A stretch of DNA of 64,000 nt from Maribacter ulvicola (GTDB lineage: Bacteria; Bacteroidota; Bacteroidia; Flavobacteriales; Flavobacteriaceae). A program made the translations under genes and the position numbers. Below the pieces are notes generated by a model, which had not been told where the DNA came from, ran no database searches, and saw nothing but the letters and a program-made list of their open reading frames with translations. The DNA lies in NCBI RefSeq assembly GCF_900155985.1, contig NZ_FTMA01000001.1:744001-808000 (forward strand), given 5' to 3'. This document shows positions 3,909 through 20,560 of the stretch, in pieces; position 1 is the first letter of the stretch, and the number at the start of each line of letters is the position of its first letter.

Positions 3909-3933
3909 GATTGTATTTTTAATGATTGATTAT

Positions 3934-5274
3934 TTAGTCTTTTGAATTTAATATGTTTTCCAGGTCGGTTTTTTTATTTATGACCTCTACCATGGATTGT
4001 AGGAACTCTTGTTGTGTAGTATATAATTGTGTTTGTGCTTGCCTTAACTCAAAACTGGTTGCCAAGCCTTCTTTATATTTTATTTGGTTTTTATTTTCAA
4101 TACGTTCAGATAACATTAGGTTTTGCTTAGCCGTCTCATAGTTATCTATAGCAAGCGTGTAGTTATTTTTGGCATGTTCTAACCGTAATCTAATTTGTTG
4201 TTCAGCTTCGGTTAACTGTGTTTTTGTTTTTTCCAAAGCAATTTTAGCGCGCTGGGTACTGGCACTTCTTTTAAGCGAACTAAATATGGGAATGTTAAGA
4301 TCAAAACCTAATACAGAAGAGTCGAACCATTGTTGGTCTCCACTGAAAAAATCAAAACTTTCAGAATATGCAGAGCTACCGTAATTTACAAAGGCATTTA
4401 AAGTAGGTAATGCACGACTTCTAGCTAGTTTCCATTCAAAATAACGCTGTTCATTTGAATTCTTTGCTAGCTTGTAATCTACGTTTTCATTAATATTGAA
4501 TTCGGTGTTAAGAATACCTAAATCCATTTTAGACATGGTTAAATCCTCTAGTTTTTCCTGTAACTGAGTAGGGGCGCTAAGATCTAGACCCATACTTACA
4601 TTTAACATTTGCAAGGTAATCTCTTTAAGTCTAAGGGCGTTTTGCAGTTGATTGTCAATAGATGATAATGTTATCTGAAGTTGGTCAACACTTTCTTCAT
4701 CGCCTAATCCGTTTTCAAACAATTTTGAAGTTTCATAAAGGTTTTTTTCAAGTGTTGCCTTATTCTTTTCCAATATTTTTACACTTTCGTTGGCTAGAAG
4801 TACGTTGCCGTATGCTTCTACAACTTGCTTTCTAACATCTAGTTCAGTTTTTTCTTTGTTGTTGTCGCTGTAACTTAAAAAAGCCTTTGTTGCTTGAACA
4901 CCAACAATATATGAGCCATCAAAAATTTGTTGTTTAAGGGTGGCAGTTGCGGTCATTGATTGCGGCTGAGAGAAAACTACGGGTAAAAATTCACCAGCTG
5001 GCCCACCAGCCAATTCTGCTGGTAATAAGGTTACAGGTTGTTTTAATTGATTAGAGTACCCTACGGATCCATCTATTTGAGGTAATCCGCCCGCAATGGT
5101 TTCCCATTTTTGTTTTTGGGCATCAATAATGTCTCTATTCGCATTAATAGCTGAATAGTTGTTCTCTAAAGCAAATTGTATGGCTTCTTCTAGTGTAAAG
5201 CTGTAGCTCTGCTCTTGTGAGTATCCTAAGCTGATATTTAGAATTGTGATTAAAATTACTAACTGATTTCGCAT
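3934..5274 (-). CDS. TolC-family outer membrane efflux protein
   Basis: 446-aa outer-membrane channel of the efflux system. A signal peptide (MRNQLVILITILNISLGYSQ, cleavage near residue 20) precedes the typical opening SFTLEEAIQFALENNYSAINANRDI of OEP repeats. There are two OEP-type repeats with long helical stretches rich in Glu, Gln, Lys and Asn (about 95-235 and 290-440). The start codon (5272-5274) abuts the stop codon of the TetR gene (5275-5277) with no gap, which implies translational coupling and one transcript tetR-tolC-adaptor-pump. Length is normal for Bacteroidetes TolC homologues. Confidence 0.93.
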   Translation of the reverse strand: MRNQLVILITILNISLGYSQEQSYSFTLEEAIQFALENNYSAINANRDIIDAQKQKWETIAGGLPQIDGSVGYSNQLKQPVTLLPAELAGGPAGEFLPVVFSQPQSMTATATLKQQIFDGSYIVGVQATKAFLSYSDNNKEKTELDVRKQVVEAYGNVLLANESVKILEKNKATLEKNLYETSKLFENGLGDEESVDQLQITLSSIDNQLQNALRLKEITLQMLNVSMGLDLSAPTQLQEKLEDLTMSKMDLGILNTEFNINENVDYKLAKNSNEQRYFEWKLARSRALPTLNAFVNYGSSAYSESFDFFSGDQQWFDSSVLGFDLNIPIFSSLKRSASTQRAKIALEKTKTQLTEAEQQIRLRLEHAKNNYTLAIDNYETAKQNLMLSERIENKNQIKYKEGLATSFELRQAQTQLYTTQQEFLQSMVEVINKKTDLENILNSKD

Positions 5275-5880
5275 TTATTCTTGATTTGAATTGATGATGT
5301 TGTTTAAAATGTTTTTTCCTTTTGGGGTTACTATACCTCTAAGGTGATACTCTAAAAATGAGTCCATTAATTTTGATATTGGAAAAATAGTTATGGGAAA
5401 TATAGTTTGGTCTTTTATACTGTTCATACCAGAAAAATATATTCTTGCTATAAATTCTGGATCTATATTAGCTCTGAATAACTCTTGTTGCAACCCACGA
5501 TCTACATTTAATAACACGCACTTATGCATTTTTTCGAAGTGCATTGATTTAACCGATTTATATATTTTCGGGTAATATTTCATTAACTGATACTGAGGAG
5601 AGCTTTTCTCTTCATTTAGGTGGGACATTACATATTTTTTAATCTCGTACAGTTCCTCAATAGCGTTTTTCTCCATCGCAATTATTAAGTCTATACCATC
5701 GCTTAAATCACAAAACTTGTTCATGACGCAATCTTCTACCAACGAAGTTTTATTATTGTATTCACTGTAAATCGTTTTTTTTGAAATGCCAATTTCATTG
5801 GCAATATCGTCCATGGTAATACTCTTAAAGCCTCGTTCAAGGAATAGTTGTGATGCCGTTTCCCTAATTTTTTCTTTCAT
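5275..5880 (-). CDS. TetR-family transcriptional regulator of the efflux operon
   Basis: 201-aa one-component repressor. I place the start at the ATG 5878-5880 (MKEKIRETASQLFLERGF). The frame stays open to 6039, but those 53 extra residues show no TetR similarity. The N-terminal helix-turn-helix is clear at about residues 21-41 (ITMDDIANEIGISKKTIYSEY); the C-terminal ligand domain is diverged, as usual. It is the first gene of the efflux operon and its stop touches the tolC start, so it probably represses its own operon and responds to an efflux substrate. Repeated GAAACT half sites lie just upstream, around a TATCTTTG -7 box. That box is only 8-15 bp from the ATG, so the message may be nearly leaderless. 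Confidence 0.88.
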   Translation of the reverse strand: MKEKIRETASQLFLERGFKSITMDDIANEIGISKKTIYSEYNNKTSLVEDCVMNKFCDLSDGIDLIIAMEKNAIEELYEIKKYVMSHLNEEKSSPQYQLMKYYPKIYKSVKSMHFEKMHKCVLLNVDRGLQQELFRANIDPEFIARIYFSGMNSIKDQTIFPITIFPISKLMDSFLEYHLRGIVTPKGKNILNNIINSNQE

Positions 5881-5888
5881 AATGGCTG

Positions 5889-5937
5889 CAAAGATACACC
5901 AGGAAACTTTAGAAACTAAATAAGTTTCCAAAGTTTT
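5889..5937 (-). promoter_or_regulatory. tetR promoter with overlapping candidate TetR operators
   Basis: On the minus strand TATCTTTG (plus 5889-5896) matches the Bacteroidetes -7 consensus. Upstream of it lie GGAAACT (5902-5908), GAAACT (5912-5917), AGTTTCC (5923-5929) and AAAGTTTT (5930-5937). GGAAACT/AGTTTCC is a perfect 7-bp inverted repeat with a 14-bp spacer. GAAACT/AGTTTC is a perfect 6-bp repeat with a 5-bp spacer. Such symmetry over the promoter fits autorepression by the adjacent TetR protein; binding itself is inferred. Confidence 0.5.
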
Positions 5938-6143
5938 ACATTTTTTTAATGTTAGGATGTTTAACCATATATTTAAATCTTCAACTCTAAAGGTATAGCG
6001 GTCTATTCTCTTGTATGATACTGCAATACAGATGATCAACTTATTTGTTCAATGGTTGCTCTTTGGTATAAGAGTCCTTTGAAACGGTAACATACCATTC
6101 CATGATTTATTGCTTGGTTGTAGTAAGTGTGCAAGAGAAGTAG

Positions 6144-7835
6144 TTACTTTTTCTTTTTGAATAACGTGTAAAGGATGATTATAACAAGCAAAGCACCAAG
6201 TAGGGGTAAAGAGTTGAATGTTTCTTTTTTAGGTTGCACAATTTCATTGATCTGTAATTGTTGATTGATTTCAACATTGGTTAGTATCTGAGTATTGCCA
6301 CCGGTCCAGTCTATAATAACGGAGTCTACTTTTGTATTTGCTCCTAAACCAAAGTGTACTATGACAGAGTTTTGAGATAAATGACTAGACCCGCCACCAT
6401 CTATTTCCCTAATAGTTCTTTTTCCATTGGTGACCACCGTAACTCTAGAGCCAATCCCATTGGTTTCAGAAGCAGTACCTTTTAATGCTACTTTTAGCCA
6501 ATTACCATTGGCAATGTCATTTCTAAAAAGACGTGTGGTTGATGCTATGGGATAATTTAAAATAGGTTGTTGGTTTACCACCAATAGGTCCATATCACCA
6601 TCATTGTCCATGTCAAAGATTACCGATCCCCTACCTATTCCGTAATCGTTAATTGCTAGTTCTCTTCCTTTTTCGGTGTATGTATTTGCGCTGTTGTCAA
6701 AATAGAAATTACCCATAGGGGTGCAATTCGGGTTTAGGTCTCCATTAGAGACAAACAGATCTAAATCTTGGTCATGGTCAAAATCGGCAAAGTTTGCGCC
6801 CCAACTAATGGCTAAATTATAAGTGCCCAATTCCTTAGCTTTGTCTACAAAGGGATTGTTATTACCTTGATTTTCCATTAGCATGTTAAACTTAATGTTG
6901 GTAATGTAATAATCCATCCACCCATCTCCGTTATAGTCACCAACAGCAGCTCCCATGGCGTTTATTTTCAAATCCATTTCGGTTTGTTCGCTAACGTCAT
7001 CAAAATGGTCTTCAGGGTATTCATTTTGGTAAAGAAAATTAGGTACAGCTTTATACCCAAAATCTTGATTCACCAATAGGTCCAGGTCTTGGTCATTGTC
7101 ATAATCGGTGAATACACCGCCAAAGCCAAATCCTTTATGCCCCAAACCATATTCATCATATACATTTTTAAAACTTTTGCCGCCTTCATTTTTTAATAAG
7201 TAACTTCTAGCTGTTTGGTTGGCACTTACTATGGTGGCATCTTTTAGAATTCCCAGCGTACCAGTAAATTCTTTAAAATAGTTACCTACAAACAAGTCTG
7301 GATAACCATCTGCATCTATATCTCCAAAACTGGGTCCTGTGCTAAAGGAGTTTAAATCTTCTAAACCATATTCATTTGTGACGTTATTAAACGTAGCATC
7401 TCCATTATTTAAGAATAGTAAGTTTTTAGCTCTTGGTATTACACTTTTGCCATCTGTAGTGGTAATGGTGGTAATGAACAGGTCTCTATATCCATCTTTA
7501 TTGATGTCTGCACTTGCAACACCTTGGGTAACATAATCATTGGTAACTTCTAGACCAGAGCCTTTAAAAATATCTTTAAAAGTACCGTTACCATTATTGA
7601 TATATAGTCTATCGGACTTTATACCGCTCGTGATATAAAGGTCTTCGAATCCGTCATTGTTACAATCAAAAACGGTCACTCCGCCACCAAAAGTTCCTTC
7701 ATAGACTTCATATTGGTGATCTAATCCGGCATCTTCGGTAACGTCAACAAATGTTTGTTGTGCAGTACTAATCCATCCGCTGAAAAAAAGCAGTACACTA
7801 AAGATTGTTATTATTGATGCTTTGTTGTTTTTCAT
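6144..7835 (-). CDS. FG-GAP/VCBS repeat protein with ASPIC/UnbV domain and C-terminal membrane anchor (CRTAC1-like)
   Basis: 563-aa exported protein. A signal peptide at about 1-25 (ending in STAQQ) is followed by VTEDAGLDHQYE and by FG-GAP repeats carrying Asp-rich calcium-loop motifs (for example DCNNDGFEDLY, DINKDGYRDLF, DIDADGYPDLF, DYNGDGWMDYY, DMDNDGDMDLL), predicted to fold as a beta-propeller. An ASPIC/UnbV domain covers about 430-520 (NWLKVALKGTASETNGIGSR, IREIDGGGSSHLSQNS). The tail is a hydrophobic helix (about 543-559) closed by KKKK, unusual for a secreted propeller. Its start overlaps the end of the haloperoxidase gene by 38 bp, so the two are probably translated together. It is the last gene of the SusC/SusD operon. 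The biochemical role is unknown; a surface or periplasmic scaffold is one possibility. Confidence 0.85.
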   Translation of the reverse strand: MKNNKASIITIFSVLLFFSGWISTAQQTFVDVTEDAGLDHQYEVYEGTFGGGVTVFDCNNDGFEDLYITSGIKSDRLYINNGNGTFKDIFKGSGLEVTNDYVTQGVASADINKDGYRDLFITTITTTDGKSVIPRAKNLLFLNNGDATFNNVTNEYGLEDLNSFSTGPSFGDIDADGYPDLFVGNYFKEFTGTLGILKDATIVSANQTARSYLLKNEGGKSFKNVYDEYGLGHKGFGFGGVFTDYDNDQDLDLLVNQDFGYKAVPNFLYQNEYPEDHFDDVSEQTEMDLKINAMGAAVGDYNGDGWMDYYITNIKFNMLMENQGNNNPFVDKAKELGTYNLAISWGANFADFDHDQDLDLFVSNGDLNPNCTPMGNFYFDNSANTYTEKGRELAINDYGIGRGSVIFDMDNDGDMDLLVVNQQPILNYPIASTTRLFRNDIANGNWLKVALKGTASETNGIGSRVTVVTNGKRTIREIDGGGSSHLSQNSVIVHFGLGANTKVDSVIIDWTGGNTQILTNVEINQQLQINEIVQPKKETFNSLPLLGALLVIIILYTLFKKKK

Positions 7836-9132
7836 TTGTTTTCTTCCATTCTAGGGCATAAACATTTTTTGCTATCTCTACTCCTTTTTCTAATCCTATT
7901 TGGTTATCTAATTGTGTGTGAATACCGCCATAAAATCTGGAATCTGCAGTTTCTTGAGCGGCCTCCCAAAATGAGTCAAATGAACGGATTACAAAATCGG
8001 TTTCTTTTAATTCATCTCGCTCCCTGCCTTCATGAGCTCTATCGGTAAAAGTGAATTCCTTACCAAAGTTGTGTTCTAAAACAGTGGCTGCGGCAGCCGC
8101 TTGTATGGCATGTCCTGAGGGAAAAGAAGGAAATGGTGGGTCAGGCCAAAAAGACTCCCACTCTTCATCAATATATTTAGGTATAAACGTATTAGGTCGC
8201 TCGGTAAAGAATTGATATTTCCATTTCCAGCAATTTATAAATGCATCTGCTACCGCCATACCTACTTGTGCAAATACCTGTGTAGTTTTAATTAGTGAGA
8301 TATCATGGCCTTCTACGGCAAGTGATGCAAAATAATACGAATGACCGGGAGGGGTAAAACTTACATCTGGATCATCGCCCCACCAAATAGCGGCTTCTTT
8401 TTCAAGTTGGGTCAATTTTAAATCTTTACGGTATACATTCTCAAATTGTTTATAGTAGGGAGAACCGGGAGTGGTGTCATACGGAATCATTTTAGGGTCT
8501 TCAAGTTTTTTGTTCGTTGAAGCAAAGGTTCTGTTTTCTCCCCAGTGCGGGTGTAATGGGTGATGGCTAAAAGACTGTGCAAATAATGGTGGTTTCCAAG
8601 CTCCTGGTCTATCTGGGTGCACCATTGTTTTATCGAAATTATTGAGATAGCCTCTATGACCGCCATCAGTTTTAGACCATTCAAAAATGGTGTTGGCTAC
8701 AGATTTCCCAAAATTCACAGAGCGAGAAATAGTTTCTTTATCTAAATATGGTGCCAGTTGATTGTAAATGACTTGCTCTAAGGAATCAATTTTTTGAACA
8801 TTCTCTTGGGAGGTTTGAACGTATATTTTCTTTAGAATTTCTGACTGACCGGCATTTAATGCCAAGACCCAATTGTACTCCTTGGTATCATTTGCCATAG
8901 GAAACATTTCTAACCCTTTCAATTGTCCATTCATTGATTTGTATTCAGGGAAACCTTGTACAATTGTTTCATACATGGTTAGTCCGGTATAGGCAAAAGC
9001 CCTAGATGCGAAAGTAGGGGAGTTAGATGGTGTATATCTTGTAATGAACAAGGTCATGTTGACCCATTTTAAAGCAACCTCTTTATCACTCAGTTTTGGT
9101 TGTTCTTTGGTGGAACATGCTGTAAATAGCAA
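7798..9132 (-). CDS. vanadium-dependent haloperoxidase / PAP2-superfamily lipoprotein (5' end interrupted)
   Basis: 444-aa mature region of a vanadium-chloroperoxidase/PAP2-fold enzyme. All vanadate/phosphate-binding signatures are present: KYQFFTERP (K305, R312), FPSGHA (S339, G340, H341) and RFYGGIHTQLD (R399, H405), numbered from the TTG at 9132. That start leaves only MLFTAC before the lipobox Cys, too short for an export signal. In the same frame an ATG at 9186 begins a complete lipoprotein signal, but its sixth codon is TAA (9169-9171). CAA there would give MTTTKQPIHITT followed by a hydrophobic core and LFTAC. The gene thus has a nonsense codon in its signal peptide, or starts at a rare codon such as ATT or ATA after it. 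It is operonic with FG-GAP proteins and SusCD. Halide oxidation versus phosphatase activity cannot be decided from sequence. Confidence 0.82.
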   Translation of the reverse strand: MLFTACSTKEQPKLSDKEVALKWVNMTLFITRYTPSNSPTFASRAFAYTGLTMYETIVQGFPEYKSMNGQLKGLEMFPMANDTKEYNWVLALNAGQSEILKKIYVQTSQENVQKIDSLEQVIYNQLAPYLDKETISRSVNFGKSVANTIFEWSKTDGGHRGYLNNFDKTMVHPDRPGAWKPPLFAQSFSHHPLHPHWGENRTFASTNKKLEDPKMIPYDTTPGSPYYKQFENVYRKDLKLTQLEKEAAIWWGDDPDVSFTPPGHSYYFASLAVEGHDISLIKTTQVFAQVGMAVADAFINCWKWKYQFFTERPNTFIPKYIDEEWESFWPDPPFPSFPSGHAIQAAAAATVLEHNFGKEFTFTDRAHEGRERDELKETDFVIRSFDSFWEAAQETADSRFYGGIHTQLDNQIGLEKGVEIAKNVYALEWKKTNEKQQSINNNNL

Positions 9133-9168
9133 GAAGAAAAGGCAGATAATGGTTGTTATATGTATTGG

Positions 9169-9171
9169 TTA
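9169..9171 (-). other. in-frame TAA in the haloperoxidase signal peptide
   Basis: The ATG at 9184-9186 is in the same frame as the haloperoxidase and lies 14 bp after the stop of the upstream FG-GAP gene, exactly where a start is expected. Codons 1-5 read MTTTK, codon 6 is TAA, and the frame then stays open to 7798. A single C-to-T change (CAA to TAA) explains it, as would a sequencing error. Confidence 0.8.
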
Positions 9172-9200
9172 TTTGGTAGTGGTCATGGTTTAATTAAAAG

Positions 9201-12200
9201 CTATTCTAATAGTTTATAGGTTTTGGTAGCTGCGCCATAACTAGTAAGAATAAGTTCGTTATCTATTAACAATGCGTGTGTATTACTACCTTGGATCGAT
9301 AGGCCGGATTGTGTCTGTGGCAAATAATTAAAATTACCCTCACCGGTTCCTAATAATACTGTTCCGTAATTAGCGTCGAACTTTCCTATTCTTAATTTAT
9401 AGTGATCGTTGTTACCTAAAAGTAATATGTCTTCATTGCCATCTTTGTTAAAATCTGCACTAACGATTTCAGAAATAGGGGAGTATTGTGCTTGAATTGG
9501 TAGTAATATATTTTGATATTTGCCACTTTTGGTACTCATTAAAACTGTAGTTTCTTGATGGGTAATCACCAATTTATTGGCTTTCTGTAACTCGGTTTCA
9601 TTGAATATATCATTTATGGTTGCGTCGGCATATTTTTCATAACTATTGAATTGTTGTCGCTTACCTGAAAGTTGCCCTAATAGCTCATCTCTGGTTACAT
9701 ATGGGTAGCTAGTACCATCCATATAAAAATTTAAAATAGGGTCTACTGATCCGTTTTGGTCAAAATCGGAGAAATACAATTCTGCTGGGTGGTCAGAGCT
9801 CACTTTAAACTGTGTATTTGTACCCATATTACCTGCTATAATATCGGGTTTTCCGTCTTTATTTAGGTCGGTAACCTGAATACTGGTCCATAAACCAGAT
9901 AATGATTCACTAAAAAATTGATCAGTTTCATTAATTAATTTACCATTTTTATTCAAGTAAATAGTAATAGGCATCCATTCACCAACAACTATTAAATCTT
10001 CTTTTTTGTCACCGTCTATGTCTGTCCAAACGGCATCTGTAATCAATCCTAAATTTTTTAAAGTAGGTTGTACGTTATCGGTTTGGTCTGTGAAATTACC
10101 TTTTCCATCATTGATGAGAACGTAACTTCTAGGGATTTCTGGAAAACGACCGGGAATACCATATCCACCTACAAAAACATCTAAAAACGAATCGTTGTTA
10201 ATATCTGAAAATGAGATCGACCCTGTGCTTATCAACATTTTTGGTAGGGAATTTTTGGTAATTTCGAAATTACCTTTTCCATCACCTATGTATATTCTGT
10301 CTTGCAATAATAGATCGTTAGCAGCTAAATTATGATAACCGCCACTTGCAACATAGATATCCAAATTACCGTCATTGTTGGCATCGAATAATGCTATATC
10401 TGTATCAACATATTTCTTGTCTTGTTCAAAACCAGAATTGTTATTTAGATAGAAATTCTTGTTCTTGGATTTAATGAATACCGATGTGGCTTGATTTATA
10501 CCCCCACCAATAATTATATCTTCTAAACCGTCATTATTAATGTCGCCTTTAGCCATTGGCGGACCATCATGAGACAGTTGTTTCAGCAATAACGATTGTC
10601 TTTTAAAGTCGTTAACAGAAGAAGATTTGTGCGTGTATTTTATTTTACTAGTTATTTTTGAAAACAAGTCTTTTGATTTGTCTTTTAGTACAGTTAATTT
10701 GCTAGCATTGCTTTCTTCTAAAACTAATAGTTGATTGGTGGTAACATCTCTTAAAGTTTCCGTTTTACCAGAATTCCATAGTACTATCAATGAATCTATA
10801 GTACTGGTGTCATTAAGTCCAAAATGTAAAATAGATGAAACGGTTGATAGATACCCTTGTGTTGGCATTTGTTCAACAACTTGTGTTTTTTCGTTGCTAT
10901 AGACACTCACTTTTGCTCCAATACCTTGGGTGTTTTTGTTTGCACCTTTTAATTGAATATTGATTTGATGGCTCGTTTCTTTTTTAGTATCATTTCTGTA
11001 TATAAATGCAGGTTTATTGATGTTGTTTACTACTAAATCTAAATCGCCATCATTATCTAAATCAACATAAATTGATCCGTTGCTATTTGCGGGTTGGTCA
11101 ATACCTGCTTGGGTTGTGTTATCAATGAAATTTATGCCGTCTTTATTACTGTAGTAGAAGTTTGTAAGGTTAGATGCGGGCATTTCTTTTATCAATTCCA
11201 ATACATCTTGGCGTTGCAACCTTCCTTTAGACTGTACGTAACTGTCCATGTAATTGATGAAGTCTAAATTGGTGTAATCCCTGAAATACCCGTTAGAAAT
11301 AAACAGATCTTTAAATCCGTCATTATCAAAATCAGCAAATAGGGGAGCCCAACTCCAATCTGTATTTGATATGCCAGATAGTTGCCCAATTTCACTGAAG
11401 GTATCATCCCCATTGTTTAATTGTAACATGTTGCGCATGTACTGATGGTGAAAACCGCTTCTAATATTTAAATCGAATTTTTCGTAATTGTCAGGTGATA
11501 GTAATAGTTTTTGACGGTAGTTATCTTTTGGTAACATGTCCAATGTGAAAATATCCTGTAGCCCATCATTATTAATATCGGCTATATTGTTACCCATAGA
11601 GAAATGACTTGTATGCCCCATTTGGATACCTAATTGGTCAGTGAAAGTGCCATTTTTATTATTGATATATAAGTAATCTGGTACCGTATAATCATTGGAA
11701 ATGTAGAAATCTTGCCAGCCATCGTTGTTAATATCGCTAATGCCAATACCTAAACCATAGGTGAGTGCAGAACCGCTGATACCTGCTTTTTCAGTGACAT
11801 CAAAAAAGGTGTTGTTTTTTTGTTCAAAGAGACGTGTACCCTGATAGGGATCATCTTTCTTTAAAAATTCTCTTGTGCTAACTTCGTTTAAGACTGGTAA
11901 TGATTTTGGATTATGGTTTAGTAAAAGCATATCTAAATCGCCATCTTTATCATAATCAAAAAAATAACCTTGGTTACTAAATGCAGCACTCGCTAAGCCG
12001 TATTCTTCTGCTTGTTCTTTAAAAATGGGTATGTTGTTGGCATCGTTACCTTGGTTTATGAAAAGTTGATTTTTACGCTTGGCATCTGGTAAAGCACCTG
12101 AATAACATAGGTATAAGTCTAATTTTCCGTCACCGTTTACATCGGCAGTTGTGATACCTGTTTTCCAAGGTCCTGGTCTACCCGCAACTTTAGAAATTAT

Positions 12201-12542
12201 AGTTACATCTTTAAAGGTGAAATCACCTTCATTCAAATAGAACTTATTTTCACCCATGTTAGAGGTGAAATAGAGATCTTGTAAACCATCATTGTTAAAG
12301 TCTCCCGTGGCAATACCGCCGCCATTATAAAGGTATTCGTATACCAGTACATTGGCATTTAATCCTTCTTTTAATGTATTTTGAAAAGTTATGTTTGTTT
12401 TACTTTCAGATAAAAGAGTAAAGAGAGGCGGCTCTTCAATTGTATTGATAGTAGAAGATGCTTCATCTTTTTTTTGGTTCTCTGCACAGCTTAGTAGCAG
12501 TAGGAATGCAGTTAAAAGAATGAAGATAGAATTTTTTGTCAT
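9201..12542 (-). CDS. large FG-GAP/VCBS repeat lipoprotein with ASPIC/UnbV domain
   Basis: 1113-aa lipoprotein. The signal MTKNSIFILLTAFLLLLSC gives a lipid-modified Cys at residue 19. Two propeller-like blocks of FG-GAP/VCBS repeats are separated by an ASPIC/UnbV domain near residues 520-610 (INIQLKGANKNTQGIGAKVS, MPTQGYLSTVSS). Many DxNxDGxxDL calcium-type loops are visible (DFNNDGLQDLYF, DVNGDGKLDLYL, DINNDGWQDFYI, DINNDGLEDIII, DLNKDGKPDII, DFNKDGNEDILL). It follows susD after a 73-bp gap holding a strong hairpin and precedes the haloperoxidase by 14 bp. Similar proteins accompany SusCD pairs in marine Bacteroidetes. A surface-exposed binding partner of the transporter is plausible, but the ligand is unknown. 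Confidence 0.87.
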   Translation of the reverse strand: MTKNSIFILLTAFLLLLSCAENQKKDEASSTINTIEEPPLFTLLSESKTNITFQNTLKEGLNANVLVYEYLYNGGGIATGDFNNDGLQDLYFTSNMGENKFYLNEGDFTFKDVTIISKVAGRPGPWKTGITTADVNGDGKLDLYLCYSGALPDAKRKNQLFINQGNDANNIPIFKEQAEEYGLASAAFSNQGYFFDYDKDGDLDMLLLNHNPKSLPVLNEVSTREFLKKDDPYQGTRLFEQKNNTFFDVTEKAGISGSALTYGLGIGISDINNDGWQDFYISNDYTVPDYLYINNKNGTFTDQLGIQMGHTSHFSMGNNIADINNDGLQDIFTLDMLPKDNYRQKLLLSPDNYEKFDLNIRSGFHHQYMRNMLQLNNGDDTFSEIGQLSGISNTDWSWAPLFADFDNDGFKDLFISNGYFRDYTNLDFINYMDSYVQSKGRLQRQDVLELIKEMPASNLTNFYYSNKDGINFIDNTTQAGIDQPANSNGSIYVDLDNDGDLDLVVNNINKPAFIYRNDTKKETSHQINIQLKGANKNTQGIGAKVSVYSNEKTQVVEQMPTQGYLSTVSSILHFGLNDTSTIDSLIVLWNSGKTETLRDVTTNQLLVLEESNASKLTVLKDKSKDLFSKITSKIKYTHKSSSVNDFKRQSLLLKQLSHDGPPMAKGDINNDGLEDIIIGGGINQATSVFIKSKNKNFYLNNNSGFEQDKKYVDTDIALFDANNDGNLDIYVASGGYHNLAANDLLLQDRIYIGDGKGNFEITKNSLPKMLISTGSISFSDINNDSFLDVFVGGYGIPGRFPEIPRSYVLINDGKGNFTDQTDNVQPTLKNLGLITDAVWTDIDGDKKEDLIVVGEWMPITIYLNKNGKLINETDQFFSESLSGLWTSIQVTDLNKDGKPDIIAGNMGTNTQFKVSSDHPAELYFSDFDQNGSVDPILNFYMDGTSYPYVTRDELLGQLSGKRQQFNSYEKYADATINDIFNETELQKANKLVITHQETTVLMSTKSGKYQNILLPIQAQYSPISEIVSADFNKDGNEDILLLGNNDHYKLRIGKFDANYGTVLLGTGEGNFNYLPQTQSGLSIQGSNTHALLIDNELILTSYGAATKTYKLLE

Positions 12543-12556
12543 TTGTTTAAAAGTAA

Positions 12557-12585
12557 AAGATCTATCCCAAAAAGGGATAGATCTT
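12557..12585 (-). terminator. 12-bp hairpin between susD and downstream genes (attenuating terminator or processing site)
   Basis: AAGATCTATCCC (12557-12568) and GGGATAGATCTT (12574-12585) are perfect complements around a 5-nt loop. Read on the minus strand the stem is followed by TTACTTTT, an imperfect U tract. It sits between the susD stop and the 1113-aa gene, so it probably lowers read-through or protects the upstream susCD message. Confidence 0.7.
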
Positions 12586-12615
12586 AAAATTAACTCAATT
12601 TAATTTAAACTGAAC

Positions 12616-14493
12616 TTAATAACCTGGATTTTGGATCAGTAGGTTATTTCTGTTGATTTCATCCCTGCTTAAAGGCATGAAATACATTTTGTCCTCCCAA
12701 GTTCTTGTTTCGTTATCATTGTTGTCTACAACGGTATACGTGTAATTATACACTGATGTATCATGCTGATAAGGAGATCTTGGTGATGCACCAGCTTTTA
12801 AGGTTGCGGTTACTTTCATTACCTTAATACCTCTACCTAACGTTTGATCGGCGATCATCCACCTTCTGGCATCATGATACCTGTGTTCTTCATAAGCCAA
12901 CTCAATTCGTCTTTCATTGATGTAATCTTCTAAAAGTTCGCTGCCAGAAGAATTAAGTGCAGGCATACCTGCCCTAAAACGAATTTTGTTCAACCAGGTT
13001 CTAGCTTCACCTTCATCACCCAAGGCAATTGAAGCTTCTACGTAGTTCAATACAATTTCAGTATATCTGATAAACGGCCAAGGAACTACTTGTGCGCTAG
13101 ATTGATTATCCACTAAAGATGGGTCTGGATCGATAAACTTGCGTACATAATATCCGGTTCTACTTCCGTTCCAGTTTTCGATTGGCGAATCTCTCATATC
13201 TACACCTGGTATTATTCCTCCGCTACCATCTGCATATGTTCCCGTTTGTATTTCGTCATAAGGATCAATAGCAGATACATCGTCAGGTCTTGGTTTCCAA
13301 GGTGAACCATCATAAAGAATGGTAGCAGCTAACCTTGGATCCCTATCATTGTATGGGTCAGCAGCATGGTCAGGGTTACCCCAATCAAAATCAGAACCGT
13401 CCATCATTTGATAGTCATCTACCAATTGTTGAATAGGTGTATTACCTGCCCAGTTGTGGTATCCGTTGGGACCATTATTGATTCCTTGATGAATACCACC
13501 TAGGGGCCAGTTGCTTTCTGCCGTAAATAATGGGGAGTGTGTTCTTTCAAATATAAGTTCTGATCTAGCAGCGGCATCGCCCACAGCACTTCCGCCTCCC
13601 ATAGCAATGGAGATATAGTTTTGTTTAGCTTCTTCAGCTGTAGCAGGAGCTGTTAAATCTAACTTGTATCCAGATGTTGCGTCTAATACAGCTTTTGCAG
13701 CGGTCTTGGCAGCGCTCCATCTTGCATCTCTATCTCCGGAGGTATAAGCAATCAATTCTAGATTTGAATATCCCCCTAATACAGATGAATTTGCACTAGC
13801 AGTAGGTCCGTCTCGTAAATCACTTGCTGCATAGATAAGTATTCTTGATTTTAATCCCATAGCACTTAACTTAGACGCTCTTCCTGGGGTAACTTCTTTA
13901 CTATCCAATAAAGAAATTGCCATATCTAGGTCATTTGTAACGAAAGCTACGTTTTCTTCATAAGTGCCTCTAGCTATAGTATAGTCATCATCTAAACCAT
14001 AGGGTTGGTCAATTAACGGAGCGCTACCATAATAACGCATTAATTGATGATAGTAATACGCTCTTAAAAAATGAGCTTCACCTAATAACCTATCTTTTAA
14101 TGGTTGGTCATCGAAGGTGGAGTTTGGTAGTTCTTGAATAGCAATATTAGCTTTCCGTATAGCTGAATATAATTCGTTCCATTGTGGTATAATATTCACA
14201 TTTCCTGTACCTGATGGTGAAAGTGAACCTTCAGTGATTACATTTATTCCTCTACCGGAGTGTGTAAACATTGCTTCATCTGTTAATGAAGCCAAGCCTT
14301 CCTCTTCAAAACCTCCATAGCCTAGGGATGAATATACACCAAATACGAATGCTTGCGCTGTTGCCCCATCGGCCCAAGTAGCATCTGCAGATAAGGCATC
14401 TAACGGCTCCGTTTCTAAGAAATCTTCATTACACGAAATAGGTGCTAACGCTAGCGTTAGCAGACCTAAGAGTACTAATTTTCCTTTTTTCAT
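12616..14493 (-). CDS. SusD/RagB-family nutrient-binding outer-membrane lipoprotein
   Basis: 625-aa surface lipoprotein that caps the SusC channel and captures substrate. The lipoprotein signal ends at Cys21 (LTLALAPISC). The usual SusD opening follows (NEDFLETEPLDALSADATW), then TPR-like helices (LLGEAHFLRAYYYHQLMRYYG at about 130-150) and the C-terminal SusD_RagB region (EIVLNYVEASIALGDEGEA, INERRIELAYEEHRYHDARRW, ending IQNPGY). Every family hallmark is intact. It lies 9 bp after the SusC gene on the same strand. No glycoside hydrolase or sulfatase lies nearby, so this is not a classic polysaccharide locus. Confidence 0.95.
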   Translation of the reverse strand: MKKGKLVLLGLLTLALAPISCNEDFLETEPLDALSADATWADGATAQAFVFGVYSSLGYGGFEEEGLASLTDEAMFTHSGRGINVITEGSLSPSGTGNVNIIPQWNELYSAIRKANIAIQELPNSTFDDQPLKDRLLGEAHFLRAYYYHQLMRYYGSAPLIDQPYGLDDDYTIARGTYEENVAFVTNDLDMAISLLDSKEVTPGRASKLSAMGLKSRILIYAASDLRDGPTASANSSVLGGYSNLELIAYTSGDRDARWSAAKTAAKAVLDATSGYKLDLTAPATAEEAKQNYISIAMGGGSAVGDAAARSELIFERTHSPLFTAESNWPLGGIHQGINNGPNGYHNWAGNTPIQQLVDDYQMMDGSDFDWGNPDHAADPYNDRDPRLAATILYDGSPWKPRPDDVSAIDPYDEIQTGTYADGSGGIIPGVDMRDSPIENWNGSRTGYYVRKFIDPDPSLVDNQSSAQVVPWPFIRYTEIVLNYVEASIALGDEGEARTWLNKIRFRAGMPALNSSGSELLEDYINERRIELAYEEHRYHDARRWMIADQTLGRGIKVMKVTATLKAGASPRSPYQHDTSVYNYTYTVVDNNDNETRTWEDKMYFMPLSRDEINRNNLLIQNPGY

Positions 14494-14502
14494 GATTTTT
14501 CT

Positions 14503-17500
14503 TTAAAATGTTAAACTAAAACCTGTGTTAATAATTGACTGTTGTGGGTAGAATTGACCACTATTGCTAGTCGATTCAGGATCATATATATCTTGAGCCG
14601 CCCATGTGGCCAAGTTTAGACCACTCATGTATACTTTAAAATTGGATAAGCCAAATTGCTCAATCATTTCTGATGGAAAGTTATATGCTAATTGAACATT
14701 CTTAAGTCTTAAATAATCTTTACTAAATAAGTTGTATGTATTGTCACCATAATCACCACCCGAATAATATGTATCTCCACGACTAGCAAGTCTTGGGTGT
14801 ACACTGCTGGGGTTTTCTGGACTCCATCTATTGTCATAACTATACTTTAGAAAGTTACCAATATCTCCTGACTCTGTTTGAATAAATAGTTTAGCACCTG
14901 TAGCACCTTGAAGCAGAACAGAGAGGTCGAAGTTTTTGTAAGAGGCATTGAACGTAACACCAAAATTGAAATTGGGGTTGATGCTGTTCTTCAGTCTTAC
15001 TTGATCTAAATCATTTATAGCTCCATCACCATTAATATCTTTAAACTTCATGTCACCAGGTTCTAAGGTTGGTTTAACTGCACTATAATCTAATGGGTCA
15101 GCGTCTATAGCAGCTTGGTCTATAAAAACACCATCAGATTCATAGACTAAATAAGATCCAATGGGTTTTCCTTCTTGTAATTGATATTCTGGTGCTCCAG
15201 GAATTTCATCTAAGAATTTAACGGTGTTCTGTGCGTAACCACCGTTTACTCCAACATCCCACTTGAAGCCATCAACATTTCCGCCATAATAATTTACTGC
15301 AAACTCAAAACCTTCGTTATTCACCTTACCAGCGTTTACAGGTGGTAAGAGGTCGGAAATTCCAGATGATCCAGGTGTAGAACCAGTTTTTTGAATTAAG
15401 ATCTGGTCACGTTTGTTCAGAAAGTATTCTAAAGTAAAACTCAGTTTGCCGTCAAGAACAATACCATCTAATCCAATATTAAAATTTTTAGCGCGCTCCC
15501 AAGTAAAGCTAGGATTGGCCAATAACGGTTCGGTTAAGATCGTTTGTACTTGTCCGTTTATAGGATACTGACCAAACTCGTAAATTGACCTATATGCATA
15601 TTCCTGTAATTCATCATCTGAAATTTCTCCGTCTTCGTTAACATCAAAAGAAACTTGATCGTTACCCATTTCACCATAAGAACCTCTTAGCTTCAAATAA
15701 CTAATCGAATCTATATTGAACCAATCTTCGTTGTTTATGTTCCAACCGACTAATAAACCTGGAAAGAAACCAAAACGATCGTTACCTGGGAAGATGTAAG
15801 AACCATCATATCTCCAGATAAATTCTGCTAAATACTTTTCTTTAAAATTGTACTGTGCACGCCCATAGTATCCTAAACGAGTTCTATTATAACCATAACC
15901 ATCAGTTTCTTGTGCAATTTCACCACCAACGCCTAATTGGTCAACTGCTGTAGATAAATAGTTTCTTCTAAAAGCGGAGAAATACTCACCTTGAAAATTT
16001 TCACGAGTTACACCGGCTAATAAATTGATAGTGTGATCATCACCAATTGTTTTGTCATAACTTAACAAACCGGTGAGGTTGGTATTTAATACATTATTAG
16101 ATGATTGTAAGAGTCTTGCATCGGTAAAATTTGAACGTATTGATCCACTAAGCTCTGGAACACCTGTAGCTATATAGTTGGCACGGTCAAGAGAGTAAAG
16201 GGTCCAAGGTGTTTGCCATTGTTTTCTGCGTAGCTGACTTTGATCTACACCGGCTAATAAGGTCATTTTTAAACCTTCTATCCATGGATTTGTAATGTCT
16301 ACAGAACCTGTAAATTGTAAATAGTCTGTTGGTTGTTTGTCATAACCTGTAGCATTTGTAGTAACTACTACTGGTTGTTGACCGTTTTCAATATCAGGGC
16401 CTGGTAAGCCATTTGGCCATATTGCAGGTTCGTTAGGTCTACCTCTCATTAACATTCTGAAAATTGAACCTGCGCCTTCCGTAGGGAAAGTTCTATCTTC
16501 TTTTCTGTATCCCATACTTAATTTGGTAGATAAGTAGTCGTTAATTCTAGCATCGGTATTGATTCTAAAATTGTATTGTTGATATCTGTTGGCAGAATTC
16601 TTATATATAGCTCCTTGGTCAGCATAACCTATTGAGGCAAAATATTTTAAGTCTTCACTTCCGCCACTAATAGATAGGTTATGTCTTTGTTGCTCCGCCC
16701 AGTCTTGAAAAGTAGCGCCAAACCAATCTGTATCTGGGTAGAGCCATGGGTCTGCTTTTGTTCTGTGGTTATTAATTGTTTCTGGACTAAAGGCTGCGTT
16801 TACAGTTTCTGAAGGACTGCTTCCAGGAATGGTATAACTGCCTGAGTTTTGAAACGCAGTATTTGCCACTCCCCATTGAGAAGCCGGAATATTACTATTA
16901 TAAATAGCCAATTCGTTCATTATGGTCTGGTACTCAACTGCACTTGCCATTTCAGGAGTTCTCGTGGGTCTAGTAATACCAAAATCTGCTTTGTAATTAA
17001 TTTGCATTTTACCGGCTTTACCAGATTTTGTCGTCACAATAATTGCACCGTTTGCTGCTCTAGCACCATAAATTGCGGCAGAGGCATCTTTTAGTACAGA
17101 AATATTAGCTATATCATCTGCATTGATACGACCAATACCGCCATCTCTATCTGGTATACCGTCAATAACAATTAAAGGTTGATTATTCCCCAATGTATTT
17201 GTACCTCGAATACTAATGTTAGATTCGTCATTGCCAGGCTCCCCACTGGTTTGAACGATTACGACCCCAGGCAATCTACCTGCCAAGGAGTTAGATACAC
17301 TAATTGCCGGTGAACTTTCTAGTACAGGGCCTTGTACTGCGGTAACCGCACCGGTTACAGTAGCTTTTTTCTGAGTTCCATAGCCAACGACAACGACCTC
17401 GTCAAGGTTGGCTACATCTTCTTCTAAAGATACGTTAATGGTATTTTGACTGTTTACAGGGACTACAATAGTTTTAAAACCAATGTAGCTAAAGCGTAAA

Positions 17501-17754
17501 CTAGAATTGCCGTCATCGATGGTGATGGTGAAATTTCCATCAAAATCTGCCTGTACTCCTGTTGTTGGGTTATTTGCATCAATGACGGATACCCCCGGTA
17601 ATGGCATATTGTCTGAAGCTGAGGTAACAGTTCCAGAAACGGTTGTCTGTGCGTGGAGACTCATAAAGAGAAACCCACTAAAAAATAAAATCATCGCTAA
17701 TCTTACGTGATTACGAAGCATGTAAAACTTAGAAAAGTTTTTTTGATAATTCAT
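14503..17754 (-). CDS. SusC/RagA-family TonB-linked outer membrane transporter
   Basis: 1083-aa TonB-dependent channel. A long N-terminal signal region (to about residue 35, ...SLHAQ) is followed by a carboxypeptidase-D-like regulatory domain (TTVSGTVTSASDNMPLPGVS, about 37-110), the SusC signature DEVVVVGYGTQKKATVTGAV, a plug (about 130-240, IRGTNTLGNNQPLIVIDGIP) and a 22-strand-type barrel ending GFSLTF. Length fits SusC (about 1000-1100). ATG at 17752-17754 is the assigned start; an internal ATG at residue 12 (MLRNHVR) gives a more typical signal peptide. It heads the operon with susD. No anti-sigma/ECF pair is adjacent and no N-terminal STN domain is present, so control is probably by another regulator. 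Confidence 0.95.
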   Translation of the reverse strand: MNYQKNFSKFYMLRNHVRLAMILFFSGFLFMSLHAQTTVSGTVTSASDNMPLPGVSVIDANNPTTGVQADFDGNFTITIDDGNSSLRFSYIGFKTIVVPVNSQNTINVSLEEDVANLDEVVVVGYGTQKKATVTGAVTAVQGPVLESSPAISVSNSLAGRLPGVVIVQTSGEPGNDESNISIRGTNTLGNNQPLIVIDGIPDRDGGIGRINADDIANISVLKDASAAIYGARAANGAIIVTTKSGKAGKMQINYKADFGITRPTRTPEMASAVEYQTIMNELAIYNSNIPASQWGVANTAFQNSGSYTIPGSSPSETVNAAFSPETINNHRTKADPWLYPDTDWFGATFQDWAEQQRHNLSISGGSEDLKYFASIGYADQGAIYKNSANRYQQYNFRINTDARINDYLSTKLSMGYRKEDRTFPTEGAGSIFRMLMRGRPNEPAIWPNGLPGPDIENGQQPVVVTTNATGYDKQPTDYLQFTGSVDITNPWIEGLKMTLLAGVDQSQLRRKQWQTPWTLYSLDRANYIATGVPELSGSIRSNFTDARLLQSSNNVLNTNLTGLLSYDKTIGDDHTINLLAGVTRENFQGEYFSAFRRNYLSTAVDQLGVGGEIAQETDGYGYNRTRLGYYGRAQYNFKEKYLAEFIWRYDGSYIFPGNDRFGFFPGLLVGWNINNEDWFNIDSISYLKLRGSYGEMGNDQVSFDVNEDGEISDDELQEYAYRSIYEFGQYPINGQVQTILTEPLLANPSFTWERAKNFNIGLDGIVLDGKLSFTLEYFLNKRDQILIQKTGSTPGSSGISDLLPPVNAGKVNNEGFEFAVNYYGGNVDGFKWDVGVNGGYAQNTVKFLDEIPGAPEYQLQEGKPIGSYLVYESDGVFIDQAAIDADPLDYSAVKPTLEPGDMKFKDINGDGAINDLDQVRLKNSINPNFNFGVTFNASYKNFDLSVLLQGATGAKLFIQTESGDIGNFLKYSYDNRWSPENPSSVHPRLASRGDTYYSGGDYGDNTYNLFSKDYLRLKNVQLAYNFPSEMIEQFGLSNFKVYMSGLNLATWAAQDIYDPESTSNSGQFYPQQSIINTGFSLTF

Positions 17755-17863
17755 AAGCTAGTTGTTAAAGTTGTTAAAGTTGTTTTGTGTAGAAGCATGT
17801 ATTACGGTCTCTTTAGGAAGCATTTTGAGAAGAAGAGTCCATGATACAGTATGCTACCGATCA

Positions 17864-17885: not shown

Positions 17886-18400
17886 TCATGTAAATATTTC
17901 AGTATTTAAATTATAATGACACTATAAAAATCATAAATAAACATCAAATAGTTAAAAAATTAAGTAAATTATAGATGTGAGTTTTAAGTTGTTTATGTAG
18001 ATATTTAGATGCAATCTATACCTATTTAAAATTGTTTTGTGGCTTGTAAAGTGTAATGTTTAAGGGCTTTTCTTGGCATTCTTTAATTAAAAGATATAGA
18101 ATATTTTATGTGATTGCACTCTTTTGAACTATAAGGAAAGATTAGCTATAGTCGCTTTTATATTGATACTGTTTGGAAAACATAATGTGCCTAGTGGAAT
18201 TAAGATTATTTCTATATAATAAGCATTGAGTTAAGGTTTTTGGTAGGACATATATAAATTGAAAATTTTACTCAGATAAATACATCGACAAGATGAATTA
18301 AACGGACTACCTAATGCTATAGTTTAGGTGTGAATGATTACAATTTTCTTTTGGCCATTTTATAGGTTTAGAGTTTTGTTTCTTCTTGTGCCAAAGCACC

Positions 18401-18429: not shown

Positions 18430-18446
18430 AAAAAAAATTGCGAGTA

Positions 18447-19421
18447 ATGCATACTATTGAAGAATATAGAGAGGAGTTTATTGCGTATTTAGACTCAAAA
18501 AAAATTACAAAGGAACCTAGGAACCTTTATGAGCCCATTACCTATATTCTTGGTTTAGGCGGAAAACGTCTAAGGCCTATTTTGGTATTAATGACTGCTG
18601 AGATTTTTAAAGCGGATTTCAAAAAAGCTTTAGATGCTGCAGTAGCGGTAGAAGTGTTCCATAACTTTTCATTGGTACATGATGATATTATGGACGACGC
18701 CCCAGTTCGTAGAGGGCAAACTACCGTTCATGAAAAATGGGATATTAATACGGGTATTCTTTCTGGTGATGCCATGCTAATTATGGCGTATCAGCTTTTT
18801 GAAAATTATGAACCCAATGTGTTTCGCGATTTGGCCAAGCTTTTCAGTAAAACAGCACTAGAAGTTTGTGAAGGTCAGCAGTACGATGTTGATTTTGAAA
18901 CTAGAGATGATGTTATGCTGCCCGAATATCTTAAAATGATTGAATATAAAACTGCGGTTCTTGTAGCTGCAGCTTTAAAAATGGGGGCTATTGTTGCAGG
19001 TGCCTCAGATATTGCTCAAGAACAAATGTATAATTTTGGACTAAATCTAGGTATTGCCTTTCAATTGCAAGATGATTATTTAGATGTATTTGGAGATCCT
19101 GAAACGTTTGGAAAACAAGTTGGCGGTGATATTATTGAGAATAAGAAAACATACCTATATCTAAAGGCATTAAAATCTGGTTCTGAGGTGATGACTAAAG
19201 AATTAGAGCACCTATATTCTATTCAGCCGAAAGAAACGGAAGCTAAAATAAGAGCGGTCCGCTCAATTTTTGAAAAAACCGAAGCGGACAAAGCTACTAA
19301 AAGTGCTATTTCAGACTATACAACAAAAGCATTTGGGGTGCTTACTGATATGGATGTTGAAGAGGAAAATAAAGATTTGCTTAGAGAATTTGGTAAAAAC
19401 CTGATGAACAGAACCGTTTAG
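18447..19421 (+). CDS. polyprenyl diphosphate synthase (trans-isoprenyl diphosphate synthase)
   Basis: 324-aa enzyme that condenses isopentenyl diphosphate onto allylic diphosphates to make a long-chain or geranylgeranyl diphosphate for quinones or carotenoids. I use the ATG at 18447 (MHTIEEYREEF); an in-frame TTG nine bases earlier would only add MRV. The first aspartate-rich motif is LVHDDIMDDAPVRRG and the second LQDDYLDVFGD, with GGKRLRPIL at the substrate site, so the active site is complete. It ends in a 4-bp overlap with the convergent lycopene cyclase gene. That neighbour makes a carotenoid precursor role plausible, but the octaprenyl/solanesyl type cannot be excluded from sequence alone. 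Confidence 0.9.
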   Translation: MHTIEEYREEFIAYLDSKKITKEPRNLYEPITYILGLGGKRLRPILVLMTAEIFKADFKKALDAAVAVEVFHNFSLVHDDIMDDAPVRRGQTTVHEKWDINTGILSGDAMLIMAYQLFENYEPNVFRDLAKLFSKTALEVCEGQQYDVDFETRDDVMLPEYLKMIEYKTAVLVAAALKMGAIVAGASDIAQEQMYNFGLNLGIAFQLQDDYLDVFGDPETFGKQVGGDIIENKKTYLYLKALKSGSEVMTKELEHLYSIQPKETEAKIRAVRSIFEKTEADKATKSAISDYTTKAFGVLTDMDVEEENKDLLREFGKNLMNRTV

Positions 19422-20560
19422 AATATCCGTTTTAGCAACGCTTTTATAAATGGAATTTTTGGGCAAGCGTTTATGTAAATAATATCTTCTTTTAAACTGG
19501 TGTTCTCATCTAAAAATTTAAATACCATTTGTGGTTTTAATGTTTTGAATATAGATTCAAATACGATGTGTCCGTTTGCATTGTCATGATGTAACACGTC
19601 TAAGAAGAGCATATCATAAAACCAAAACTTGCCTTTTAGTTTCAATTTTTGAAGTGGTTTTCCTTGTTTTATAAAATCTACCAGTTTCGGTATTTTCTTT
19701 GCCGTACTCATTAAGGTATAGCCCGTGCTAGGTTTTGCCCATCCGCCTGCGGTACCAATGTATCTAATTCTGTTGGTATGGTGTTCCCTAAAATCATATG
19801 CCGTCATGGGTATACTACCAGCTTCCTTTTCAATAACTGCATAGTTTTCGCATTGAAAACGTTCCACAATATAGTCTTTTATAGCAGCTTCATATTCGGC
19901 CTTTGGTAATAGTTGCTCTGAAAATAATGTGTATTCTATCAATGCCGTGTCATTAGCAAAGGGCAACACATACATAAAACGGGTATTTCCTTTCTGTGGA
20001 ATTGAAAAATCCATGTAAGTAACTTCATTGGTATTAAAAATTGGTTTTTCGGTTTTAATTACCCAACCTACAAAATGCTGTTGCAATACCGGATATTTAC
20101 TTTGACCCGTGGCCATTTTATAGTCAAAAAGGCTGTTAAATAAGTACTTGCCAGTATAGGTGTTATTGGTAGTCTGTACGGTAACTTCAGTATCTGTTTC
20201 AAATAGGTTTACCAAAGCTTCTTGAATAAAGGTGATGTTGGTAGATTCTTTAATCTGACTTAAGTAGTGGTTATAGAAATCAATGCTTTTAATCATTTTA
20301 TAGGAATACGGACTTATTTCTGTCCTTTTAAGGACATCTTCTCCTTGAAAATGAATAGAATTCCATTTTTTATGTACGATTGCTTCAAACTGACCATCTC
20401 CTTTTTCCCAAAAACACCAAGTTCTATCATTGGTGTTCTTGGGGTCTTTGTCTAGTAGTAATATTTTTTTATGATTAAAAAACGAATCATTCAGCATGGC
20501 ATTTGCTAATAATAAACCTGATGCACCTGCGCCAATAATAATATAATCGTAATTGTTCAT
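19418..20560 (-). CDS. crtY: lycopene cyclase (CrtY/LcyB type)
   Basis: 380-aa FAD/NAD(P)-dependent flavoprotein-fold cyclase that forms beta-ionone rings on lycopene to make beta-carotene, en route to zeaxanthin-type pigments of flavobacteria. The N-terminal dinucleotide-binding motif is YDYIIIGAGASGLLLA (5-20), followed by DRTWCFWE (about 45-52) and the conserved GTAGGWAKPSTGYTLM (about 270-285). Length is normal. It overlaps the convergent prenyl synthase by 4 bp. A minus-strand TATTTTTG box lies at 20603-20610, about 43 bp upstream of the start. No other carotenoid gene is in the window. Confidence 0.9.
   Translation of the reverse strand: MNNYDYIIIGAGASGLLLANAMLNDSFFNHKKILLLDKDPKNTNDRTWCFWEKGDGQFEAIVHKKWNSIHFQGEDVLKRTEISPYSYKMIKSIDFYNHYLSQIKESTNITFIQEALVNLFETDTEVTVQTTNNTYTGKYLFNSLFDYKMATGQSKYPVLQQHFVGWVIKTEKPIFNTNEVTYMDFSIPQKGNTRFMYVLPFANDTALIEYTLFSEQLLPKAEYEAAIKDYIVERFQCENYAVIEKEAGSIPMTAYDFREHHTNRIRYIGTAGGWAKPSTGYTLMSTAKKIPKLVDFIKQGKPLQKLKLKGKFWFYDMLFLDVLHHDNANGHIVFESIFKTLKPQMVFKFLDENTSLKEDIIYINACPKIPFIKALLKRIF

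Follow-up and report, generated by a model that had tools for sequence, protein, structure and literature searches.

A conserved SusC/SusD unit with a haloperoxidase-fold enzyme and two FG-GAP/ASPIC proteins in Maribacter ulvicola and other Bacteroidota

Five adjacent genes of Maribacter ulvicola encode a SusC/SusD pair (SusCD), a vanadium-haloperoxidase-fold lipoprotein and two FG-GAP/ASPIC proteins, and these genes form a real unit that is conserved across distantly related Bacteroidota. They are located in a stretch of 64,000 nucleotides (positions 744,001 to 808,000 of contig NZ_FTMA01000001.1, assembly GCF_900155985.1), which is termed the window and to which all nucleotide positions refer. 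The five genes are termed the cassette. The leading reading, put forward tentatively, is that SusCD imports a ligand that is a glycoside or contains sugar in another form, and that a peroxide-dependent enzyme module is attached to this importer together with CRTAC1-like propellers.

Gene layout and conservation of the cassette

The genes of the cassette are as follows.

14503..17754 (-): gene 1, SusC/RagA TonB-dependent transporter, 1083 aa; Plug and CarbopepD_reg_2 (Pfam)
12616..14493 (-): SusD/RagB lipoprotein, 625 aa; SusD_RagB (E 1.7e-54) and SusD-like_3 (Pfam)
9201..12542 (-): FG-GAP/ASPIC lipoprotein, 1113 aa; FG-GAP_3 (six stretches) and UnbV_ASPIC (Pfam)
7798..9186 (-): vanadium-haloperoxidase-fold lipoprotein; open frame 7798-9132, 444 aa from TTG 9132; PAP2 (Pfam)
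6144..7835 (-): FG-GAP/ASPIC propeller protein, 563 aa, with an N-terminal signal and a C-terminal transmembrane helix; FG-GAP_3 (four stretches) and UnbV_ASPIC

When the open reading frames (ORFs) are re-checked, the layout given in the initial annotation (five same-strand genes, spaced by 9, 73 and 14 bp, the last counted to the ATG at 9186, with an overlap of 38 bp between the final two) proves exact, and the domain content given there agrees. SusC of the window matches TIGR04056 of NCBIfam at E 2.6e-259, and its closest solved chain by sequence is 8aa4. No NCBIfam family is found for the haloperoxidase or the FG-GAP proteins at E 0.001.

When an alignment of seven haloperoxidase orthologs is run against named genome contigs, 80 loci are obtained (cited by L numbers where needed), of which 79 are kept as orthologs with at least 56% identity in the best segment, some of them partial; L132 of Streptomyces (24-28%) is left out. 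The record titles name members of Flavobacteriia, Cytophagia, Saprospiria and Chitinophagia. SusC and SusD are found in all 55 loci with at least 9 kb of upstream DNA, and the 1113-aa type is found in 54 of them. The exact order SusC-SusD-FG1113-VHPO-FG563 (VHPO, vanadium haloperoxidase) is kept in 49/55, and the six deviating loci have either a 1113-aa gene that is displaced, divergent or missing or an inverted SusCD. The 563-aa gene follows the haloperoxidase gene in 71/76 loci by rule and in 73/76 after L069 and L105 are read by hand; L087, L103 and L126 are without it. It directly adjoins the haloperoxidase gene in 71/79 loci, and 38 of these 71 pairs overlap by 11-16 bp.

Because these loci had been picked by their haloperoxidase, 395 genomes of the class were sampled independently and three proteins were searched separately at E 1e-110. 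A haloperoxidase of at least 58% identity is detected in four of the 395 genomes. The 563-aa type (at least 59%) is detected in the same four, adjoining the haloperoxidase gene and with SusD about 5 kb away. SusD of at least 63% is detected in these four and in one fragmented genome, the 5-kb contig of which stops inside the 1113-aa gene. Eleven further genomes of the 395 have sister SusDs (42-58%) but no haloperoxidase of this clade, two of them having a 43-46% haloperoxidase relative elsewhere. The pairwise distances of the five proteins correlate with r 0.84-0.96 over 53 complete sets, to which shared phylogeny contributes. Chance clustering is ruled out by the recurrence of the five genes, mostly in the same order, across distant Bacteroidota. 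Thus, the proposal that a SusCD uptake pair, a haloperoxidase-fold enzyme and two propeller proteins make up one multi-gene unit is borne out by the neighbourhood survey. In L117 (Maribacter litopenaei), all five genes are split into several ORFs, perhaps by sequencing frameshifts, and this locus is left out of the distance, membrane-helix and lipobox analyses.

Fold of the enzyme and choice between peroxidase and phosphatase

The AlphaFold model of the haloperoxidase (pLDDT 86.7) matches the vanadium iodoperoxidase of Zobellia galactanivorans, 4cit, with Z 46.2 and rmsd 2.9 over 399 aligned residues at 31% identity. Both 4cit and 4usz score Z 46 over 399-402 residues, and the same fold extends over most of the chain, with the vanadate-site motif regions aligned. 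Chloroperoxidase-type enzymes and NapH3 score Z 30-31, and acid phosphatases score about 11-13 over about 190 residues. Residues K305, R312, S339, G340, H341, R399 and H405, which make the vanadate site, are invariant in 44/44 aligned sequences. They align with 353, 360, 402, 403, 404, 490 and 496 of Curvularia chloroperoxidase in weak local alignments. W302 and F334 align with chloroperoxidase positions 350 and 397.

Alternatively, the enzyme could act as a PAP2 phosphatase and take phosphate off a ligand before or after import. The protein matches PF01569 (PAP2) at E 4.9e-9, and its VCPO_N match is under the Pfam cut-off. The PAP2 domain does not discriminate, because haloperoxidases share it. 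The vanadate-site residues are likewise common to haloperoxidases and PAP2 phosphatases, and fungal apo-chloroperoxidase traps a phosphate intermediate, as the title of 3bb0 states. However, the full-length match is to enzymes of the chloroperoxidase/iodoperoxidase type, the phosphatases match only about 190 residues, W302 and F334 have their counterparts in chloroperoxidase, and the enzyme is occasionally swapped for haem proteins of MauG type, as described below. The structure prediction that the initial annotation proposed for separating the two therefore favours a peroxidase, as judged from model and sequence, and the phosphatase alternative is improbable, the least probable of those weighed here.

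The swap is seen among 20 loci of the 563-aa type that were obtained from 115 genomes of one family. A haloperoxidase gene is next to the 563-aa type in eight of them, in one case with two small ORFs between. A di-haem gene of CCP/MauG type occupies the haloperoxidase position, on the same strand, in three (two genomes of one genus and one of another), and such a gene is divergent in one more, from a third genus. Two of the MauG proteins are confirmed by Pfam, and the other two share 55-56% identity with these and contain two CxxCH motifs. CCP/MauG proteins are unrelated to haloperoxidases and are not encoded in the window. That an unrelated enzyme which also uses H2O2 can take this place speaks for peroxide chemistry, although independent cases are few. 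Among 27 loci of more distant 563-aa relatives, no MauG gene stands beside the 563-aa gene.

The peroxidase may instead be a protective or halogen-handling add-on that leaves the imported molecule untouched: during feeding it would consume H2O2 and, at the envelope, either produce hypohalous acid or fix iodide. The use of H2O2 by both CCP/MauG proteins and haloperoxidases fits such an add-on. Iodine uptake by Arenibacter sp. C-21 agrees with it as well: this uptake required glucose, oxygen and calcium, a membrane-bound glucose oxidase and a haloperoxidase have been proposed for it, and no fewer than five PAP2 genes of the genome are homologs of the Zobellia enzyme (PMC5064120). Zobellia vIPO3 was upregulated on Ascophyllum as compared with alginate (PMC9296495), which points the same way. 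However, an add-on leaves unexplained why one SusCD type, with median identities of 69% and 72% to the window over the other 52 complete sets, remains linked to one enzyme clade, and it does not account for the regulators and glycosidases of the relatives. This alternative is rather unlikely, though it is the strongest rival of the importer with an attached peroxide-dependent module. A marine-only iodide role is weakened by orthologs in Flavihumibacter, Emticicia and Arcicella (record titles), the habitat of which is non-marine.

The cassette enzyme is about 30% identical to the Zobellia iodoperoxidase, and the true ortholog of the latter in the genome of M. ulvicola is another gene at another locus (E 1e-218), where two FG-GAP genes of 1100 aa immediately precede it. 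Of 13 haloperoxidase paralog loci, 7 have an FG-GAP gene of the 1100-aa type next to them, these 13 being the best-scoring ones and those of the M. ulvicola genome out of well over a hundred matches listed. The same genome has a third, distant haloperoxidase-like gene (L052 7401-8855; 24%, E 3e-7), with no SusCD or FG-GAP neighbours in 20 kb.

The haloperoxidase frame is unusual at its beginning. Counted from an in-frame ATG at 9186, codon 6 is the stop TAA (window 9169-9186), and the start in the ORF list is TTG 9132. The frame is open at this place in all 14 Maribacter relatives listed. The TTG start leaves 33 residues ahead of a conserved motif, as compared with 45-119 in other sequences (45/70 where the motif is found), and the signal peptide is therefore damaged in this sequence. 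The stop may be recent, may be an error of sequencing or assembly, or may be bypassed via a non-standard start. Decay of the whole gene is unsupported: dN/dS is 0.045-0.058 against four relatives and 0.053 for a pair of relatives, with dS above 1, so that these values are rough.

Propeller proteins, regulation and ligand

FG-GAP repeats and an ASPIC domain are detected by Pfam in both FG-GAP proteins of the window, and for the 1113-aa protein also by structure match. The 1113-aa model (pLDDT 85) is beta-rich, with FG-GAP repeats on either side of the ASPIC domain, and its best match in the PDB is murine CRTAC1 (9etn; E 1.9e-26, TMt 0.71). The 1113-aa lipoprotein probably consists of two propellers. 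The 563-aa type has a hydrophobic N-terminus and a C-terminal hydrophobic helix, the latter in 73/73 sequences, suggesting that this protein is anchored in the inner membrane and faces the periplasm, rather than being exposed at the outer surface. The haloperoxidase and the 1113-aa lipoprotein, unlike SusD, have no net acidic residues after the anchor cysteine. This test is crude, as is the lipobox pattern, which matches 58/71 haloperoxidases, 38/60 proteins of the 1113-aa type and 28/58 SusDs. All parts had been predicted to be at the outer surface or in the periplasm; for the 563-aa protein the helix favours the periplasmic side, and the haloperoxidase may face either side.

Three elements of possible regulatory relevance are found in or next to the cassette.

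17839..17857 (-): site resembling a GntR operator, some 100 bp ahead of the start of susC; two mismatches to the consensus of the GntR-bearing relatives
18249..18311 (+): stretch of 21 aa that may be left over from a lost GntR gene (43% identity over its length, E 0.57); weak, may be chance
12557..12585 (-): terminator-like hairpin with a 12-bp stem, in the 73-bp gap from susD to the 1113-aa gene

A GntR gene stands beside SusC in 19/79 relatives (divergent in 17, on the same strand in L067 and L102), and the operator-like site GTAGCAnAGnnTATCATAG, in short form GTAGCA-N5-TATCATAG, lies upstream of susC in all 19. A scan of 200 bp detects it in 17 of the 19, in the window and, as a loose site with five mismatches, in L091; with 340 bp, L067 and L102 are added. 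When whole loci are scanned with at most two mismatches, the 19 and the window are detected, whereas the remaining 60 loci, some of which stop short of the susC promoter, give no match. In a pattern search of four genomes, one-mismatch sites give three matches against two for the reversed control, so that only exact sites and the site of the window, at its conserved place, are counted. LacI-type genes are located nearby in L091, L099 and L127, and FecR genes upstream in L071 and L083, of the other loci tested. Thus, the earlier remark that the cassette has no regulator holds locally and does not extend to the relatives. A stem of at least 9 bp is present in 56/66 gaps downstream of SusD, as compared with 11% of mononucleotide shuffles, the gaps of related loci not being independent. 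Because of the hairpin, the three genes after it may be expressed less strongly than susCD.

Carbohydrate genes are found beside the cassette or its sisters in several lineages. In L143 (same family, other genus), the same GntR (66%) and the exact operator-like site accompany SusC (41%), SusD (46%) and a relative of the 1113-aa protein (38%), and an alpha-galactosidase-like enzyme and a haem protein replace the last two cassette genes. Relatives of this alpha-galactosidase-like enzyme (42-45%) directly follow the 563-aa gene in L067 and L102. In other loci, genes downstream of the cassette encode a 3-keto-disaccharide hydrolase (L083), a pectinesterase (L096), GH92 and GH28 (L100) or a GH42-like enzyme (L076). 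These glycosidase-type neighbours, together with the LacI, FecR and GntR regulators, point to a sugar-containing ligand. Adjacent SusC and SusD, as in a polysaccharide utilisation locus, are present; among the five window genes no carbohydrate-active enzyme is detected by Pfam, and the cassette is accordingly described as working like such a locus and is not filed as one. The view that this is not a standard polysaccharide locus therefore holds for the five genes, which lack a glycoside hydrolase, but not as a general statement.

It is also conceivable that the imported molecule is an organic compound other than a sugar, for which aromatic, halogenated or metal-chelating compounds come into question, and that it is oxidised at the envelope. 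SusCD-like pairs can carry non-sugars, and the lack of a glycoside hydrolase among the five genes fits such a compound, but the LacI-type regulators and carbohydrate enzymes of several lineages do not. This alternative is unlikely, only marginally more probable than the phosphatase.

The cassette is flanked by an efflux-type unit (window 2742-6039) and by polyprenyl synthase and lycopene-cyclase-like genes (18438-20560). The efflux side is common to L053-L066, and is not shared by the Croceivirga (L100) or Allomuricauda/Flagellimonas (L070-L072) loci; because this flank is present in some relatives only, the cassette changes position. In L056, L060, L061, L065, L066, L068 and L073, sigma-factor-like and small membrane-protein-like genes (judged by eye) lie between the 563-aa gene and a TetR-TolC-HlyD unit, and neither is found in the window by tblastn. 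Rfam gives nothing at the gathering threshold in window 2500-24500.

Proposed function and relation to known systems

If the cassette is an importer with an attached peroxide-dependent module, SusC and SusD would bind the ligand and import it, and the 1113-aa lipoprotein would be an accessory propeller that works with SusD. The haloperoxidase-fold lipoprotein, supplied with H2O2 and probably a halide, would oxidise the ligand, the non-sugar part of the ligand or a local halide. The 563-aa propeller, the gene of which is often translationally coupled to that of the enzyme, would be fixed in the inner membrane by its C-terminal helix and would position or hold the enzyme in the periplasm. In relatives, a regulator of GntR, LacI or FecR type would control the unit, and the hairpin after susD would keep SusCD above the enzyme part in abundance.

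Several observations weigh against this reading. With respect to linkage, in eight of the 20 loci that contain the 563-aa type, SusD immediately precedes it with no peroxidase between. In the 27 loci of the more distant relatives of the 563-aa protein, SusCD is present in three (L183, L196 and L204), a haloperoxidase lies directly upstream in one (L200), and neither is found in 23. The five closest sister enzymes tested (42-47%, L146-L150) are without any SusCD or FG-GAP gene within 20 kb. With respect to the enzyme, its signal peptide is interrupted in the window, algal bromoperoxidases score Z 12-14, no higher than phosphatases, and NapH3 (8cxl) is a haloperoxidase homolog with a non-halogenating reaction. 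With respect to ligand and control, the carbohydrate neighbours vary by lineage and many loci have none directly attached, the effector domain of GntR resembles a periplasmic binding protein weakly (PF13377, under the Pfam cut-off), and the hairpin could split the transcript. The genome of M. ulvicola contains no close GntR copy (best 32%); together with the mismatched site, this suggests that the regulator is lost here and that the site is drifting.

The families of the parts are already known, and their combination is a variant of SusCD-type uptake. The cassette shares with SusCD polysaccharide utilisation loci the succession of SusC, SusD and a lipoprotein and, in some relatives, LacI/FecR regulators. 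It differs from them in its core enzyme, which is of haloperoxidase fold, in the absence of a glycoside hydrolase from the five genes and in the FG-GAP/ASPIC proteins, which stand where those loci have known surface glycan-binding lipoproteins. Both FG-GAP proteins have the FG-GAP repeats and ASPIC domain of CRTAC1/ASPIC-UnbV proteins (9etn). Unlike CRTAC1, they are bacterial, one is about twice as long, one is membrane-anchored, and both are operon-linked to SusCD and a peroxidase-type enzyme. No description of a unit of SusCD, haloperoxidase and ASPIC proteins is found in the open-access PMC literature searched.

A bolder extension, which is doubtful, is that such cassettes serve throughout Bacteroidota as the oxidative equivalent of polysaccharide utilisation loci, in which an exchangeable peroxide-using enzyme (vanadium haloperoxidase or di-haem MauG-type) docked on CRTAC1-like propellers oxidises, rather than hydrolyses, a sugar-containing substrate during import. 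If this were true, ASPIC/CRTAC1 propellers would be scaffolds for redox enzymes more generally.

Uptake loci of Bacteroidota are interpreted almost entirely through glycoside hydrolases. A conserved SusCD unit with a haloperoxidase-fold protein as its sole core enzyme would indicate oxidative handling of substrates at the cell envelope, and would for the first time place many uncharacterised haloperoxidases of bacteria, as well as propellers of the ASPIC/CRTAC1 type, in a physiological setting.

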